Source: a virus. Taken from it: a DNA stretch of 28,991 nucleotides. The DNA lies in the IMG/VR virus record IMGVR_UViG_3300044825_002687, positions 1 to 28,991 of that record. The stretch is one strand, 5' to 3'. Position numbers and translations under genes: made by a program. The notes below the pieces were generated by a model. The model was not told the origin of the DNA and ran no database searches. It saw nothing but the letters and a program-made list of their open reading frames with translations. Below are positions 14,460 to 20,441 of this stretch, one piece after another. Every line of letters starts with the position of its first letter. The first letter of the stretch is position 1.

Positions 14460-14929
14460 TTTTCTTTGAAAAGTTCCGCACGCGCTACCATTGTGCTTCC
14501 GTCATAGGGTTCCAACTCGTAATGTGTACCATTCATAATTTTAACCGGTCTGTATAGAAGTGCCATAAGATAATGAATGTTGTCTGTCAATTTATCGGGT
14601 TGTCCGAATACTTCCATATCTACCCATTGTCCCCAAGTCATATTTCCCCACTCATTTTCAATTCCGTAGGTAGTTTCACCTATTTTGAAGGTAAAAGTAA
14701 TTTCATCGGTGTTTGGTTCGAGAATGGTACTTGAAAGGAAACCCTCCACAACCTTTATCTGCTCAACGGGTAGACCTCGTAGTTCATCTTTGGTAATACC
14801 CAAGTAAAGTGCCAACAATTCTGTTTTGTCTTGGTATTTATTTGGGTTTTTCTGTAGGGATTGATATTTCCCTATTGTTAGTTCAGGGGAAACTTCAATG
14901 GGCTTACCATCTAAAATTACTTGTATCAT
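14231..14929 (-). CDS. Probable tail assembly chaperone, zero-frame product
   Basis: A 232-residue zero-frame product starting 4 nt inside the end of the TerL gene (ATGA overlap). Residues 1-168 look well formed: IQVILDGKPIEVSPELTIGKYQSL, a helical part (LLALYLGITKDEL), and MTWGQWVDMEVF...HYLMALLYRPV...ELEPYDG. After FFF at 169-171 the sequence becomes Lys/Arg/Thr-rich (TISKEYTTHLEN...), which looks like off-frame reading. A gene before the tape measure with a short product and a -1 shifted longer product is the hallmark of tail assembly chaperones (lambda G/GT type). I infer that role from arrangement rather than sequence similarity. Confidence 0.55.
   Translation of the reverse strand: MIQVILDGKPIEVSPELTIGKYQSLQKNPNKYQDKTELLALYLGITKDELRGLPVEQIKVVEGFLSSTILEPNTDEITFTFKIGETTYGIENEWGNMTWGQWVDMEVFGQPDKLTDNIHYLMALLYRPVKIMNGTHYELEPYDGSTMVARAELFKEKCPISFWFGASRFFFTISKEYTTHLENSLRWTTKMIKISQPILKILPKYLRVRALRAFTSTLPSDLQTGILRSFPN
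14417..14425 (-). promoter_or_regulatory. T9 slippery run, candidate -1 frameshift site
   Basis: On the minus strand the sequence is CGG TTT TTT TTT ACA in the zero frame. Slipping back one base gives TTT TTT TAC AAT, entering the extension frame. The run satisfies the X-XXY-YYZ rule for -1 slippage, and nine identical bases can also cause polymerase slippage. I did not find a clear downstream stem-loop by eye. Confidence 0.55.
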
Positions 14930-16080
14930 CTAATAACGAATTTTGGTTTTTTATTTCCTATAGTACTTTCCAAAATATAACGAATAGCATCTATAGTGTG
15001 ATTGTGGTCGTCTTCGGGGGCATCCAACAAGTCCCCGTTTTTATCGGTCTTCCATTTATAACTTTGGAACTCAAATAGAATATTTTTACTTTGTTCCGTA
15101 ATGTAAATATGATGACGACGAATAAGGTCTATTCCGTGAAGAATTGATTTTTTATTTACTGGCTTTGCGTTGAACTTTGCTCTACGCAATTCTTCTATAT
15201 TTTGTGGTGAGGCACTATCACACCAAATATGGTCTGTTTTTTCTATACCAAGTTCCTCCATTTTGTGAATGATGTCCACCATTGTCAAATTGCGAACATA
15301 GAGTAATTCGTGGAAAAAAAGTTGGTCGTCCATTTGATAAACCTCTATCAAAGTGGTTGGGTTGTTGAAACCCATATCCATTCCCCTACCTAATAATTTT
15401 GCTTCAGGGGGGACGTGTTGAATTGTGGTGAATTTGTTGAACACCAAAGTCATAGGTATTCCTCGTTCACCGAGATTGTAAATCCTATACAGGTTTTCGT
15501 CCTTTTCCTTGAGACTTTCCAACTCTGCTACAATACTATCCGCCACAAATGGATTATCTCGCCAGGTCGTCTTAAAATAGTATGTATCTTCACGCTTTTC
15601 AAGGTCATAAACCCAACTCGAAAGTTCAGAGGGGTTTAAGTCAAGAATGACCTTATCGGTGGTACGAAAAATAAGTTGGTTCCAATCTTCAAGAGTCAAT
15701 TCATTCGCCTCGTTACAATACAGATAATCTCGTTTCGAACCACGCAGTTTTTGTGGCTCGTCTACACTGAACCAATTTATAATATTCCCATTTAGTTCAT
15801 AGTACCCCTCTTGTTTGTGCCACTTTCGTTCATCGAATATGTTGAAAAGTTCAAGTATTTCCCGTAAATCCTTCAACACGGAGTTTTTCATTGCCGGTAA
15901 TGTTTTACGAACTATTGAAAGTGTTTTACCCTTTTCAAGAAGTAATTTATAAATCCAGTAAATAAGAATATTGTAGGTCTTGCCCGAACGGGAACCTCCT
16001 TGAGCCACAACCAAACGTTTACCGAGTTCGTCAGACTTGAGAATATTTTCAAATACTAAAGTGGTAGATATTGTTTTCAT
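14926..16080 (-). CDS. terL: Terminase large subunit (packaging ATPase-nuclease)
   Basis: A 384-residue DNA-packaging motor with an N-terminal ATPase and a C-terminal RNase H-like nuclease that cuts concatemers. Walker A is GGSRSGKT at 28-35. The Walker B/catalytic Glu is in LYCNEAN, near residue 124. Candidate nuclease metal ligands are Asp235 (GMDMGFNNP), Asp288 (WCDSASP) and Asp358 (EDDHNHTIDAIRY). The pattern fits the Terminase_3/PBSX XtmB-like family and its usual length of about 400. It overlaps the TerS gene upstream and the chaperone gene downstream by 4 nt each, so these are probably translated together. No insertion or intein is seen. Confidence 0.95.
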   Translation of the reverse strand: MKTISTTLVFENILKSDELGKRLVVAQGGSRSGKTYNILIYWIYKLLLEKGKTLSIVRKTLPAMKNSVLKDLREILELFNIFDERKWHKQEGYYELNGNIINWFSVDEPQKLRGSKRDYLYCNEANELTLEDWNQLIFRTTDKVILDLNPSELSSWVYDLEKREDTYYFKTTWRDNPFVADSIVAELESLKEKDENLYRIYNLGERGIPMTLVFNKFTTIQHVPPEAKLLGRGMDMGFNNPTTLIEVYQMDDQLFFHELLYVRNLTMVDIIHKMEELGIEKTDHIWCDSASPQNIEELRRAKFNAKPVNKKSILHGIDLIRRHHIYITEQSKNILFEFQSYKWKTDKNGDLLDAPEDDHNHTIDAIRYILESTIGNKKPKFVIR

Positions 16081-16340
16081 TTATATCCCCTCTTTTGACC
16101 TTTGGTTTTCAGGTAAAATTGTATTGCCGATAAATCCCCATTATTTATTAGGTTGAGCAATCTATTTTCAACATAGTCAAGCGACATTTCGTTTATACGA
16201 TTTATCTGTTCGACGAATAGTTTGTTCTTCCCCCATTCTTCGTATTCATCACGGGAAATACCGGTTTTCTGTAGTGCCACAGAAATTATTCCCAACGACC
16301 TACCTAATTCCTCAATAAAAAGTTCCTGTCTCTCATTCAT
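16077..16340 (-). CDS. terS: Terminase small subunit
   Basis: An 87-residue helical protein that starts 8 nt inside the end of the dioxygenase gene and overlaps terL by 4 nt. The pattern FIEELGRSLGIISVALQKTG followed by ISRDEYEEWG is an N-terminal helix-turn-helix. LDYVENRLLNLINNGDLSAI and FYLKTKGQKRGY form the oligomerisation part and basic C-terminus seen in many small terminases. It would bind the packaging start site and load TerL. The length is at the short end for the family. A second TerS-like gene lies at 20031-20441, so this phage may use two DNA-recognition subunits, or one of them may serve another role. Confidence 0.8.
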   Translation of the reverse strand: MNERQELFIEELGRSLGIISVALQKTGISRDEYEEWGKNKLFVEQINRINEMSLDYVENRLLNLINNGDLSAIQFYLKTKGQKRGYK

Positions 16341-17235
16341 TTACACGACTTTCTTTGAACTTATTTATTTCTTTTTTTGATAGTTTTTCAAGTTCCATTC
16401 CCCTACGCTTCAATTCTTCGAGATGCTCTACATCTAACATTTTCTTTTCACGCTCGGTTTTAATGTTCCGTATTCTAATCAACTCCTCATCTATTTCCTC
16501 GCACTTCCACAATTGCTCCAAAGAATAATAAACCACGGAGTATCTGTACCCTTCAGGGTCGTCATAGTGGATTTCGCTTACTCCGTGAAGAATATCTTGT
16601 CCGTTGAAAATGGTGAGAGTATTGTCTGCCACTTCCAAAGCAATATCCAAACTTGGGATACATAAATGCCCACCTGAAACCCCCTTTTTGAAAACAATCA
16701 TATTACTCAAAACACCCTTGAAATTACCTGCGTCGAAATGGTAATTCAACCGGTTATTTTTATTCACAATACCACTCGTGAAAGGTGTATTTTCTATTTG
16801 GTAATCTTCCAACACTTTTTCTTTTACCAAGTTTGCGTGTTTCTCGTAGGTTTCAGGAAAATATGTTTTATAGAATTGCTCTATTTCCTTGATAAAGTTC
16901 GTTAAGACGTAGTGTTGTTTTGGGTATTTCTTTGCCATTTCACTCAAACGACAATAGTCCGCAGTAATGGGGTTTCTCGGGTAGTATCCGAAAACGTTTG
17001 CTTGTTGTTGTAAACCACGAGTTCTTTTTGATTTGGGGTACTTTTGATTTTTCACAGCCCACCTTACCGCAGAGGTGTTTACGTCTTTTAGTGATGCGTA
17101 TAAAACAACCGGTTCATCATTTACGTAAATTATAGTATCTTCCTTTATAATGGTCGTTACATCGGAAATAAATGCCGTTGCCTTCTTGTATTTTTCAAGG
17201 TCAAATTCTTTGAATTGTAGGTCTAATCTTTTCAT
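16333..17235 (-). CDS. TET/JBP-family 2-oxoglutarate/Fe(II) dioxygenase
   Basis: A 300-residue protein with the core motifs of the Tet_JBP oxygenases, which hydroxylate the 5-methyl group of thymine or 5-methylcytosine in DNA. Iron ligands are His166 and Asp168 (NYHFDAGN) and His217 (NGQDILHGV). Arg231 (YRYSVVYYS) is the predicted 2-oxoglutarate anchor. The distances (H-x-D, then 49 residues to His, then 14 to Arg) are close to those I recall for JBP1 and TET2. SGGHLCIPSLDIAL between the ligands and GLQQQANVFGYYPRN (74-88) also match the family. The C-terminal 60 residues are charged helices of unknown role. It lies between a glycosyltransferase and terS. No methyltransferase is present nearby. 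A protein hydroxylase is the main alternative; prolyl hydroxylases normally use Lys about 10 residues after the last His, which is not seen. Confidence 0.85.
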   Translation of the reverse strand: MKRLDLQFKEFDLEKYKKATAFISDVTTIIKEDTIIYVNDEPVVLYASLKDVNTSAVRWAVKNQKYPKSKRTRGLQQQANVFGYYPRNPITADYCRLSEMAKKYPKQHYVLTNFIKEIEQFYKTYFPETYEKHANLVKEKVLEDYQIENTPFTSGIVNKNNRLNYHFDAGNFKGVLSNMIVFKKGVSGGHLCIPSLDIALEVADNTLTIFNGQDILHGVSEIHYDDPEGYRYSVVYYSLEQLWKCEEIDEELIRIRNIKTEREKKMLDVEHLEELKRRGMELEKLSKKEINKFKESRVNE

Positions 17236-17247
17236 ATCTATAAATAT

Positions 17248-17997
17248 TTAATCGGGTAATTTTATTTTTACCACCGATTTATTCATCTTCAATTCGGTAT
17301 ATTCACTTTTACGACCTTCATTTATGGAAAAAATGTTGGGATACATTTCAACCAATTTATTTGAAGCCACAAATTCCATATCTGACCTTTGTTGTTTCTC
17401 CGTCTGCATCCCCCCTTTAGTTTTATAATTGTTTGTTTTACAGGACAAAAAATTAAAACGAGCAACTCGTCCATAAACTTTGTGGAAAAGAATACTTCGT
17501 TCATAGTCATTCTTTGTTTCAAGAATACAATTTAAGTTTTCTGTTTTTTTTGATATAAACCCGAACATATTTGCCACCAAATAGGTCAGTCCCACTTCAA
17601 TATCTTTTTTCATAAAGAATAAATTACTTGAAGGGTAAATCCCCCACGCTTCTATTTTGTGTTTGCCACAGAAATTAAAAATATACCACAAAACGTTTGA
17701 TAAATGCCGTTCGTAAAGGTCTTGTACTTCCTTTACGTCGTCTTCCAAAACAACTACCCATTCCCCTTCACTGAAGTAATTCTGTACGAAGTTGAACTTC
17801 TCTTTCACCGACTTTGTATTTGTCAAAACCAAATTATACTCGGGGTATAGTTCCTCGTACAATTTGTAGTCCTCGTCATCGCTAATGAAAAGGTAGATAT
17901 TTTCTTTGTCGAAATCCTTTAGGGTATTCAAAGTCAAATTACCGATAATATCACTTCTTCGGTGGGTTGGTATAGCAAACTTATATTTCATCGGCAA
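17248..17997 (-). CDS. GT-A glycosyltransferase, probably TET-associated type
   Basis: A 249-residue protein starting with FAIPTHRR (7-14), the usual first strand and loop of a GT-A glycosyltransferase. ENIYLFISDDEDY (32-44) and VVVLEDDV (81-88), a DxD-like metal/nucleotide-sugar site, follow. The C-terminal half has DYERSILFHKVYGRVARF (164-181) and YKTKGGMQ (191-198), which resemble the acceptor-side motifs of TAGT enzymes encoded beside phage TET/JBP oxygenases. It would transfer a sugar onto a hydroxymethylated base. It lies directly before the dioxygenase gene (12-nt gap) and overlaps the HAD-kinase gene by 17 nt. There are no membrane segments, which argues against lipid-linked cell-wall work. 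Acceptor and sugar cannot be read from sequence. Confidence 0.75.
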   Translation of the reverse strand: MPMKYKFAIPTHRRSDIIGNLTLNTLKDFDKENIYLFISDDEDYKLYEELYPEYNLVLTNTKSVKEKFNFVQNYFSEGEWVVVLEDDVKEVQDLYERHLSNVLWYIFNFCGKHKIEAWGIYPSSNLFFMKKDIEVGLTYLVANMFGFISKKTENLNCILETKNDYERSILFHKVYGRVARFNFLSCKTNNYKTKGGMQTEKQQRSDMEFVASNKLVEMYPNIFSINEGRKSEYTELKMNKSVVKIKLPD

Positions 17998-18922
17998 TGT
18001 TGTTTATAATACTTGTGTATTCGGGTTTATATTTTGATACTCTCAACCCCTCTGCTACGGCAAAGTGTTTCACAAGTTCCCCGAATGCCTCTACGAGCAT
18101 TTGAGCACCAAAGTGGTCTTGGTTGTAAGCGATAAGTGAAAAATATGTTTTACCCGCATCGGTCAAATACGAGCCGAAAACATTTTTGTAGTTGGGGTCT
18201 ATCAACCAAGTACGCTCATTTTTCAAGACGTTTGTTGTTGAGAGGTCTCCGTGAAAGAAAGTACCTGGATGGTTAGGCAAAGTACTAATCAATTCTCGTA
18301 CCTTTTGGGTGTTTTTCGGATGTACTACCAATCTGTCAAGATACGTTTGAAACGGGTAATTTGGTATTTGTTCGTGCCTGAACTCTTCAATTAGATTGAT
18401 GTAGTCAATCACTCGTGGTTTCATACTCTCACTAATGCGTTCAGTGATTATTGTTTCATCATTTACAAACAAAACTTCAGGAACGTTAAAACCTCTCAAC
18501 CTCGCAATGTCATACCATTTTTTCTCGAATATAGAGGACTTCGACTTCTTGATGACTGAACCATTCGTAAAAAGTATTTTGTTGTCTGTAAAAGGAGATA
18601 AATGGGGTATAAACTCATCATTCGGTCGGATGGTCATATCGTCAATGTAGAGGTCTCCATATTCTTTGTTGAAACTTATCTCATCGAAGGGGACTTGGTA
18701 GGTTTCCAAAAATTGTTTTATCAAAGCATAATATTTGCGTTCCTTTTCCCCCACGCTCAAATTAGACTTAGCGCCCCGTGCGGTACAGACCACAATATAA
18801 CACTCGTACTCTTGTTTCAATCTTTTCAACCTTTCAATCAACGCATAATTGGGTTCAGCCGAGGTTATGTATCCGGTTAAACCCCCAGCCAAAGTTCCAT
18901 CAAAATCAACAACTATTCTCAT
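17981..18922 (-). CDS. HAD phosphatase fused to APH/choline-kinase-like phosphotransferase
   Basis: A 313-residue two-domain enzyme. Residues 1-105 form a small HAD domain with DFDGT (6-10), TAR (47-49), Lys86 or a nearby Lys, and IDD (93-95), as in capsule-locus HAD phosphatases. Residues 115-310 look like an aminoglycoside phosphotransferase/choline kinase fold: an N-lobe with Lys125/126 (GSVIKKSKSS), the catalytic loop HGDLSTTNVL (224-233) with Asp226 and Asn231, and the metal-binding LIDPN (240-244). The pair could phosphorylate a small molecule or a glycan and remove phosphate from another intermediate. HAD-kinase fusions next to nucleotidyltransferases occur in bacterial capsule loci, recalling LicA/LicC-type phosphocholine pathways. 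Inside a phage packaging operon this is unusual. It overlaps both neighbours (4 and 17 nt). Confidence 0.75.
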   Translation of the reverse strand: MRIVVDFDGTLAGGLTGYITSAEPNYALIERLKRLKQEYECYIVVCTARGAKSNLSVGEKERKYYALIKQFLETYQVPFDEISFNKEYGDLYIDDMTIRPNDEFIPHLSPFTDNKILFTNGSVIKKSKSSIFEKKWYDIARLRGFNVPEVLFVNDETIITERISESMKPRVIDYINLIEEFRHEQIPNYPFQTYLDRLVVHPKNTQKVRELISTLPNHPGTFFHGDLSTTNVLKNERTWLIDPNYKNVFGSYLTDAGKTYFSLIAYNQDHFGAQMLVEAFGELVKHFAVAEGLRVSKYKPEYTSIINNIADEI

Positions 18923-19467
18923 ATCTCTTTTTTTATTGCTTCCAAATAATCTTCCCTGTCCCCCAAACGCACAAATGTATCTTCAAAATATACTTTTGGT
19001 TTATCCATTCCCGAGATTACGGAATTATCATCACTCATTCGTTCGAGGAGTTTTGAAACACTCTTGATGAAATAAGCACCTGATAATTTATTTTCCCAAG
19101 TGCTTTGTTTCTCGGTACTTTCAACCACCAAACCATTCTCAATCTTTACCGAACCGTATTTTTTTTTCGTTGAAGTGAAACAAACCACTTCATCGGTCTT
19201 GAATGAAAGCTCGGGCATTCCAAAAGGTATAATATCACAATCAAACAATAATACATTATTCCAACTGCGTATCTCGTTGAGAGTTTCCCTCCGACTTTTG
19301 GTTTTATTTACCCCGATTGTATAATGATTAGGGTATATTGTGCCTATCCAGTCAATTATCGTTTTATCCCAAAAGTAGAGGTTTTGTTTCTCAAGATTAC
19401 TCAAACACTTCAACCGACTACCACTACCTCCCACGCTAACGACAACGTTAATCTCGGTCATTTTCAA
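18919..19467 (-). CDS. Sugar/phosphoalcohol nucleotidyltransferase-like protein
   Basis: A 182-residue protein with the nucleotide-binding loop VSVGGSGSRL (10-19), a following Lys27 (NLEKQNLYFWDK), a metal-binding DCD (76-78, VLLFDCDIIPFG), SGAYFIK (129-135) and an end segment YFEDTFVRLGDREDYLEAI. These are, in order, the landmarks of NTP-transferase enzymes that join a sugar-phosphate or phosphocholine-like group to an NTP. It is shorter than the usual 220-260 residues, so the acceptor-binding part is reduced. The first loop has GGSGSRL in place of the common AGGxGTRL. It probably prepares an activated donor for the glycosyltransferase or for a phospho-group transfer. ATG 19467 gives MKMTEINV; the in-frame ATG at 19461 is an alternative start. 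Confidence 0.7.
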   Translation of the reverse strand: MKMTEINVVVSVGGSGSRLKCLSNLEKQNLYFWDKTIIDWIGTIYPNHYTIGVNKTKSRRETLNEIRSWNNVLLFDCDIIPFGMPELSFKTDEVVCFTSTKKKYGSVKIENGLVVESTEKQSTWENKLSGAYFIKSVSKLLERMSDDNSVISGMDKPKVYFEDTFVRLGDREDYLEAIKKEI

Positions 19468-20041
19468 GATAGTAATTCATTAGGAAGATAAACGCTTCGG
19501 TATTTGTCTTGAACCTTTTACCTTCCATAACTTGGTCTAATTTATTTATTGCCTCCTCGTATTCAGCCTGACTGAAAAACAGAGTGATTCTGCGTATTTG
19601 GGAGTCCAAATACTTTTCAAGTTTTCGACTTAAAACGTCCTCATCTATCTCGGGCTCCATTTCATCGTCCATTACCCACGCAGGTATTTCTAAACCCCAG
19701 TCCGATACTACAGAAACATCCCAACTCGTTGAGATGCTATCCCAATTCCATTCTCCATAGTTGACGTTGTCCTTCACTACGAACTCCCTCTTTTTTGCTT
19801 CGTCCAAGTTTGAGAAACGGATAATGGGAATGTCCTTGTATCCAAGTTCCTTTAGTGCTCGCAATCTCATATTTCCACCGATAACCACAAGGTTTTCATC
19901 TACCACCAAAGGACGAGCCTCTAACATTTCGGGGAACTCTTGAATTGATTTTTTCAATTTCTCAAGTTGGTCTCCTTTTATAACTCGGGGATTATCAGGA
20001 TTTGGTTTTATTGTTTCAATATTTACTACCTCAATTTTCAT
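19448..20041 (-). CDS. ParB-like N-terminal domain protein
   Basis: A 197-residue protein. Residues 5-75 are a ParB/Srx-type domain: IKPNPDNPR (11-19), LKKSIQEF (29-36) and VVIGGNMRLRALKELGY (52-68). The GGNMR motif corresponds to the nucleotide-binding GxxR box. Residues 90-125 (VNYGEWNWDSIS...WGLEIPAWV) match the extension common in phage ParB-like proteins encoded near DNA methylases. The rest is acidic and helical. No C-terminal ParB dimer domain is seen, so plasmid partition is unlikely. As the first gene of the modification cassette it could be a DNA-binding or NTP-hydrolysing accessory factor. It overlaps the TerS-like gene (11 nt) and the nucleotidyltransferase gene (20 nt). Confidence 0.8.
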   Translation of the reverse strand: MKIEVVNIETIKPNPDNPRVIKGDQLEKLKKSIQEFPEMLEARPLVVDENLVVIGGNMRLRALKELGYKDIPIIRFSNLDEAKKREFVVKDNVNYGEWNWDSISTSWDVSVVSDWGLEIPAWVMDDEMEPEIDEDVLSRKLEKYLDSQIRRITLFFSQAEYEEAINKLDQVMEGKRFKTNTEAFIFLMNYYLENDRD

Positions 20042-20441
20042 TTGGTCTTACAATTTCAATTTTTATAGGTTCAGCATTTATCTGTTCTCCTTGGCTCGTT
20101 ACGTCCAAACGAGTGCTTTCGCTCCAATTATCAGGGAACTTGTTGCGAACAATCAAACTCCATAGTCTCGAATTAAATCCCTGTCCTCCGTCCTTTTCCA
20201 TTGCTCTATGTGCTAAATTATACCAATAATTCTCACATAAAGTTCGGTATTCTTGAACGGCTCTGGAATATTCTGGGTTTCTTTTCATCATAGCGTAGTG
20301 CTGGTCCCAAGATAAACCCAAAGTCAAAAGGAACTCGGTAATGTGTTTTCCCTCTAAACCACTTTGAAGGATAATCTCCTTCCAAACGGGGTTCATATAG
20401 GTTTCTGTGCGGGGTCTACCCCTTTTTTTTGGTTCGTTCAT
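20031..20441 (-). CDS. Second terminase-small-subunit-like DNA-binding protein
   Basis: A 136-residue protein. The N-terminus KKRGRPR (5-11) is an AT-hook-like motif. A helical part with SWDQHYAMMKRNPEYSRAV (helix-turn-helix-like) follows, then NSRLWSLIVRNKFPDNWSES and a C-terminus with TSQGEQINAEPIKIEI. This C-terminal pattern occurs in small terminase or packaging proteins of several phage groups that I recall. It starts 1 nt after the MGCNC gene and overlaps the ParB-like gene by 11 nt. With the shorter TerS at 16077-16340, it brackets the modification cassette. It might be the true packaging-site binder, or a regulator that links DNA modification to packaging. Confidence 0.6.
   Translation of the reverse strand: MNEPKKRGRPRTETYMNPVWKEIILQSGLEGKHITEFLLTLGLSWDQHYAMMKRNPEYSRAVQEYRTLCENYWYNLAHRAMEKDGGQGFNSRLWSLIVRNKFPDNWSESTRLDVTSQGEQINAEPIKIEIVRPNEN

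Follow-up and report, generated by a model that had tools for sequence, protein, structure and literature searches.

A predicted sugar-donor cassette beside TET and TAGT genes in a viral DNA-modification operon

IMG/VR virus record IMGVR_UViG_3300044825_002687 is a 29-kb fragment of viral DNA, and its whole length of 28,991 nucleotides is called the window here. Positions 17981 to 19467 contain, in minus-strand orientation, the gene of a nucleotidyltransferase (NT) and the gene of a HAD phosphatase fused to a kinase. They are followed by the genes of a TET-associated DNA glycosyltransferase (TAGT) and a TET/JBP oxygenase. The NT and HAD-kinase genes are likely to supply three enzymes for building a sugar donor used in the glycosylation of phage DNA, the sugar being probably an arabinose-like pentose. 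The genes, domains and motifs concerned are the following.

18919..19467, minus strand: NT, 182 amino acids, of the RmlA/GalU/LicC fold (predicted fold, motifs, alignment)
19411-19431, minus strand: GGSGSRL motif of the NT, residues 13-19
19234-19242, minus strand: DCD motif of the NT, residues 76-78
17981..18922, minus strand: HAD-kinase fusion, 313 amino acids, both domains in one chain
18593..18922, minus strand: HAD phosphatase domain, residues ~1-110, EcbF/BcbF-like and a homologue of AfhF (matches to TIGR01689, 1xpj and 9iqw)
17984..18592, minus strand: small-molecule kinase domain, residues ~111-313, of the APH/LicA/5-methylthioribose-kinase fold (predicted fold, alignment, motifs)
18230-18253, minus strand: HGDLSTTN motif of the kinase, residues 224-231
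18191-18205, minus strand: LIDPN motif of the kinase, residues 240-244
17248..17997, minus strand: TAGT, a GT-A glycosyltransferase with EDD at residues 85-87 (PF20691, phrog_25200, alignment)
16333..17235, minus strand: TET/JBP 2-oxoglutarate (2OG)-Fe(II) pyrimidine oxygenase (PF12851, 1e-15; alignment)

The NT gene overlaps the HAD-kinase gene by exactly 4 nucleotides, and all four motifs were found as an earlier reading of the sequence, the original prediction, had described them. The NT starts with TTG; an ATG two codons on is an alternative start. The original prediction also placed the pair in a modification operon, which is borne out by TAGT and TET downstream and a ParB gene upstream. 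The order ParB, NT, HAD-kinase, TAGT, TET and terminase forms a tight minus-strand operon, in which adjoining genes overlap by 4-20 nucleotides, save for a 12-nucleotide gap between TAGT and TET.

By sequence, the HAD domain matches TIGR01689 (EcbF-BcbF) at 5e-12, under that model's cutoff, and a search of PDB sequences relates it to the Vibrio protein 1xpj (6e-9). The kinase domain gives weak matches to RIO, APH and Bud32 only. The NT has no NTP-transferase Pfam match, and a PDB sequence search with it alone returned chance matches only; its fold was assigned by prediction. TAGT matches phrog_25200 at 2.5e-14 and PF20691 at 1e-4, the latter below the curated cutoff, which TAGT homologs in Synechococcus phage S-CBWM1 and mycobacteriophage Acadian exceed. 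In the TET/JBP protein, alignment shows that the metal and 2OG ligands H166, D168, H217 and R231 are kept.

The active sites can be followed through relatives that share 36-59% identity with the HAD-kinase and 24-50% with the NT. Among 18 aligned HAD-kinases, D6, D8 and T10 of the HAD domain are invariant in all 17 rows that cover them, and T47, K86, D94 and D95 are invariant as well. In the kinase domain, K125, E133, H224, D226 and D242 are invariant in all covering rows, and N231 is present in 17 of 18. R18, K27, D76 and D78 are invariant in 18 of 18 aligned NTs, and equivalent catalytic residues are kept in five proteins in which NT, HAD and kinase form a single chain. Degeneracy in relatives, which by the original prediction would have told against it, is therefore not seen, and the sites are intact.

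AlphaFold2 models of the NT and the HAD-kinase (mean predicted local distance difference test score, pLDDT, of 88 for each), compared by Foldseek/VIA-align, confirm the enzyme folds. The NT model matches GalU, GlmU, LicC and PntC in a tie at Z 16-17 (LicC 1jyl, Z 17.0). The kinase model ties at Z 12-13 with PsiK, 3dxq, plant and bacterial 5-methylthioribose kinase, LicA and APH. Within this group, the Mesorhizobium choline-kinase-family protein 3dxq reaches Z 13.0, LicA 4r77 Z 12.6, and 5-methylthioribose kinase, which acts on C1 of a pentose, about 13. The HAD model matches 1xpj at Z 12.9 and AfhF (9iqw) at Z 11.6, with a root-mean-square deviation of 3.4 over 110 residues. The models thus confirm the enzyme classes; since LicA, methylthioribose kinase, PsiK and APH tie, fold ranking decides for neither choline nor sugar.

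Single-sequence scans of viral contigs with the window NT or TAGT found nothing, and alignment-based scans were needed. These located the HAD-kinase in 16 viral loci. Wherever both flanks are present in viral loci, the NT lies directly upstream of the HAD-kinase; their pairing is not due to chance. Two contexts can be distinguished. In the first (the window, L015-L017, L024/L025 and L035-L047), the pair adjoins TAGT and TET, and the genes usually run ParB, NT, HAD-kinase, TAGT, TET. In the second (L003-L011, L012-L014, L030 and L033), it stands in records without TET, and the neighbours, where checked, include glycosyltransferases (GlcNAc transferases among them), an FkbM methyltransferase or a GDP-mannose dehydratase. 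Several of these TET-less phages have a 2OG-Fe(II) oxygenase of PF13640 conserved beside NT and HAD-kinase (L005:9047-9607 and relatives), a second kind of oxygenase adjoining the pair. The HAD-kinase tree needs four changes of context, at least two of them forced by strong branches. A product that can be used on both DNA and glycans fits a diffusible activated sugar and does not fit a DNA-directed kinase.

A scan with a TAGT profile returned 23 loci, which with the window make 24, in 13 clusters at 90% identity. NT and kinase are present in 24 of 24. The domains are joined in several ways: NT beside a HAD-kinase, as in the window; a single NT-HAD-kinase chain of 597-621 amino acids in the same operon (L034, L048, L049, L050 and L052); a kinase beside an NT-HAD protein (L053, where no TET was seen in a locus cut at the TAGT end); HAD, NT and kinase as separate genes (S-CBWM1); and HAD beside an NT-kinase (Stenotrophomonas phage DLP6). 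The TAGT of L034 is 70-71% identical to those of L036 and L044, whereas the HAD-kinase parts share 26-28%, so a distantly related module with the three activities has taken the place of the donor module at this position. The trio of NT, HAD and kinase is one functional unit.

When genome contigs were scanned with the window-type alignment, no relative turned up in cells, but the tri-domain alignment did find cellular relatives. In cellular loci, HAD, NT and kinase occur together, fused or separate, several of them in bacterial and archaeal polysaccharide clusters. Here capsule-biosynthesis HADs of the EcbF/BcbF type accompany APH kinases and NTs, a grouping shared with the window; unlike the window, these are cell-surface glycan loci.

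An example of the same trio serving DNA modification can be found in the RB69-like phages. RB69 DNA is arabinosylated; the paper that found this proposed ORF53_52c and the isomerase ORF055c for UDP-arabinose synthesis with no mechanism, and in the sections drawn on here the HAD is not mentioned and the word 'phosphatase' is absent (PMC6024577). In the fused proteins, the kinase part matches the 'GlmU' protein of RB69-like coliphages, a member of this ORF53_52c family of NT-kinases. In E. coli O157 typing phage 3, an RB69-like Mosigvirus, an SIS isomerase lies just upstream of the NT-kinase and a HAD directly after it. This HAD is identical at 97 of 99 residues to the aligned stretch of 9iqw, whose PDB title reads 'phage HY126 encoded D-arabinose 1,5-diphosphate phosphatase AfhF'. 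The title suggests that part of the arabinosylation pathway has been worked out by others; a literature search on AfhF and HY126 found no paper. According to a 2026 paper, the full arabinosylation pathway of Mosigvirus is not yet characterised and the arabinose precursor is unclear (PMC13390438).

The tri-domain profile matches 9iqw at 1.1e-14; in a small set, it gives 8e-27 for the RB69-type kinase and 3.5e-20 for the window HAD-kinase, and a profile of window-type HADs matches AfhF at 4e-6 in a tiny one. Each domain is thus homologous by sequence to its RB69-like counterpart, directly or via intermediates, and the window likewise unites an NT, an APH-fold kinase (as modelled) and an EcbF/AfhF-like HAD. 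The differences lie in arrangement and partners. The window has NT and HAD-kinase, with no isomerase seen, where the RB69-like cluster has NT-kinase and HAD; and the window has TET and TAGT, where the RB69-like phages use a 5-hydroxy-dCMP synthase route (PMC13390438). The original prediction took the use of such chemistry next to DNA glycosylation to be new; because arabinosylating phages carry the three domains, it is only partly so.

Two cultured phages carry the trio together with TET and TAGT. In S-CBWM1, gp8 (TET), gp9 (TAGT), gp10 (HAD), gp11 (NT) and gp12 (kinase) stand in a row. In DLP6 the row is TAGT, HAD, NT-kinase in the RB69 architecture, and TET. The DNA of DLP6 appears in a published list as resistant to restriction enzymes (PMC8228603).

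Several annotations at these loci differ from the findings above. The DLP6 HAD is an unannotated open reading frame (L138:4926-5342) between TAGT and the NT-kinase AAY80_029, which its authors named ModA. S-CBWM1 gp8 (L135:471-1907) and DLP6 AAY80_030 (L138:7032-8378) are annotated as 'SNF2 DNA repair protein' and are actually Tet_JBP oxygenases (PF12851 at 4e-18 and 8e-19). The label 'phosphoheptose isomerase' (phrog_1238 and many GenBank phage entries) was rejected, since the proteins that bear it are EcbF/AfhF-type HAD phosphatases. In Synechococcus phage S-SKS1 (L134:2613-6151), an NT shares its chain with a domain that bears the annotation DHBP synthase; a kinase, a HAD and a transaldolase-like protein, the last named by eye, come next, in what is a sugar-phosphate cluster in a cyanophage.

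Homology to the RB69-like HAD, AfhF and the tri-domain proteins points to the order kinase, HAD, NT, by which an aldose phosphate would become a 1,x-bisphosphate, then a sugar-1-phosphate and finally an NDP-sugar. In the first step, the APH-fold kinase would take a sugar phosphate from the host and phosphorylate its anomeric hydroxyl to give a 1,5-bisphosphate; the substrate is most likely a pentose 5-phosphate, such as D-arabinose 5-phosphate. The HAD would then strip the non-anomeric phosphate, as the title of its homologue AfhF suggests, to leave sugar-1-phosphate. The NT would join this to an NTP, giving the NDP-sugar. Finally, TET would hydroxylate the methyl group of a DNA pyrimidine, probably thymine, and TAGT would add the sugar there. 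This would yield a pentosylated counterpart of base J or of glucosyl-5-hydroxymethylcytosine (5hmC), shielding the phage DNA from nucleases.

A search for C5-cytosine methyltransferases in 25 records, mostly fragments but including the complete genomes of S-CBWM1 and DLP6, was negative. This favours conversion of thymine to 5-hydroxymethyluracil (5hmU), as for base J, over that of 5-methylcytosine to 5hmC, although the host may supply the methylation.

Several points weigh against a dedicated arabinose donor for DNA. The PF20691 match of the window TAGT falls under Pfam's cutoff. By sequence, the window HAD is only weakly similar to AfhF (16% over 110 residues), and the profile value of 4e-6 comes from a tiny set. 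The count of 24 of 24 was drawn from loci related to a trio-bearing query, and this kinship inflates it; one locus, L051, has NT and kinase without HAD. Pairs in glycan clusters that lack TET imply a donor not specific to DNA, and the sugar may differ between clades. For TET/TAGT members with the trio, the sugar (arabinose?) and the base (5hmU?) are inferred, the pentose by analogy with AfhF and RB69 only. Family scans identified no operon gene of the window as a sugar-phosphate isomerase (SIS), and none was found in the TET/TAGT records searched, again mostly fragments and including the two complete genomes; SIS proteins were confined to the RB69-like control and a single phage with the pair in a glycan context. 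The precursor would then be host-supplied, for example arabinose 5-phosphate made by KdsD.

The same donor pathway could instead handle a heptose or hexose, such as a heptose 7-phosphate derived from sedoheptulose (GmhA/HddA/GmhB/HddC-like), that TAGT would move to DNA. The NDP-heptose route (GmhA, HddA/HldE, GmhB, HddC) follows the same logic of kinase, bisphosphate phosphatase and nucleotidyltransferase, and HddC (5xhw) is among the fold matches of the NT. A GmhA-like SIS protein (L132:1246-1752), which would fit a heptose, occurs in a 175-kb phage record that has the pair in a glycan cluster, and S-SKS1 joins the trio to its transaldolase-like protein. However, kinase and phosphatase of the NDP-heptose route come from other families, no isomerase is seen in TET records, and the GmhA case belongs to a glycan context. 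AfhF is the only matched HAD with a named sugar substrate, and the only trio of known DNA chemistry, that of RB69, is arabinosylating. A heptose or hexose is unlikely.

The trio might also modify virion or host-surface glycans and lie in a TET operon by accident, given that other phages have relatives of the pair with GlcNAc transferases and FkbM methyltransferases as neighbours. This is very unlikely. The NT and kinase are found beside TAGT in every one of the TAGT loci, two cultured phages carry the trio with TAGT and TET, the reading frames overlap, and the module was replaced in place by a distant version. Moreover, of the proteins of the window that were scanned, TAGT is the sole glycosyltransferase identified. 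A role on host surface glycans only, raised in the original prediction, does not hold, although relatives of the pair occur in phage glycan clusters too.

The original prediction itself described a LicA/LicC-like pair. In such a pathway, choline, ethanolamine, glycerol or serinol would be phosphorylated, activated as a CDP-alcohol and put on DNA or virion glycans. Part of this description stands: the DNA-modification operon does pair a LicA/APH-fold kinase with a LicC/RmlA-fold NT, as judged from the predicted models. The best fold matches of the kinase include LicA and the Mesorhizobium choline-kinase-family protein, and LicC is joint best for the NT, but methylthioribose kinase, APH, PsiK, GalU and GlmU tie with them. 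The HAD, a third enzyme with its active site intact, has no counterpart in LicA/LicC pathways and is left unexplained by this reading. The small alcohols proposed as substrates (choline, ethanolamine, glycerol) also find no backing in the family matches: the window kinase has no Choline_kinase match at E 1, and it has IDPN where choline kinases have their signature IDxE (N244 in 17 of 18 rows). No LicD-type phosphotransferase (PF04991) is present in the 29-kb record, a fragment, and the partner enzyme is a glycosyltransferase. The pure LicA/LicC reading was rejected on signature, partner transferase and intact HAD, and is highly improbable.

Least probable of all is that hydroxymethylpyrimidines in DNA, or nucleotides, are the direct targets of the kinase and the HAD (phosphorylated bases or end healing), with the NT separate: some phages do use 5hmU DNA kinases and phrog_415 polynucleotide kinase matches the HAD at 0.002, but those phage kinases have a P-loop fold as opposed to the APH fold here, and the pair's presence in TET-less glycan loci would be unexpected.

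Operons of TET/JBP and associated glycosyltransferases are said to have been first described by Iyer et al. in 2013, who may already mention some of these genes. The TET/JBP-TAGT operons of mycobacteriophages and Arthrobacter phages share the cassette of ParB, TET, TAGT and terminase, as in Acadian. They differ in the gene that follows TAGT, which in Acadian and Arthrobacter phage Prairie encodes a PIG-L deacetylase, and in having no trio in the vicinity. These deacetylases (L136:2438-3025 and L137:4741-5331) occupy the slot after TAGT in actinobacterial phages. This suggests that a host UDP-GlcNAc donor is used and GlcNAc is deacetylated on the DNA; the slot would customise the sugar by other means in the PIG-L operons.

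The window cassette is flanked by the following genes.

20031..20441, minus strand: terminase-small-subunit-like protein (phrog_309, 1e-4), upstream of ParB with an 11-nucleotide overlap
19448..20041, minus strand: ParB N-terminal domain protein (PF02195, 1.5e-7), in conserved position at the upstream end of the conserved cassette
16077..16340, minus strand: small terminase/HTH-like protein after the cassette (phrog_24579, 3e-5)
14926..16080, minus strand: large terminase, downstream of the cassette (PF04466, 3e-23)

The large terminase is nearest to those of Flavobacterium phages (37%), so the host is possibly a member of the Bacteroidota.

TAGT-type DNA glycosyltransferases often occur with no T4-type partner, as in 288 of 753 phage genomes (PMC13216743). 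Phage DNA glycosylation as such is already known; what is new is that the donor toolkit of arabinosylation is joined to TET and TAGT. One TAGT clade is thereby tied to a complete three-step donor pathway, its order of steps predicted from domain fusions and the title of the AfhF structure, and S-CBWM1 and DLP6 are named as cultured, genome-sequenced carriers. Tentatively, an environmental phage family may produce NDP-pentose itself and use TET and TAGT to build arabinosyl 5hmU in its DNA, a counterpart of base J; the donor cassette would be one that plugs into either DNA or glycan modification. If true, TET-based DNA modification would draw on a phage-made sugar, and the cassette would represent an enzyme family for rare nucleotide sugars. 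The phage would thereby be independent of whichever sugars its host contains.

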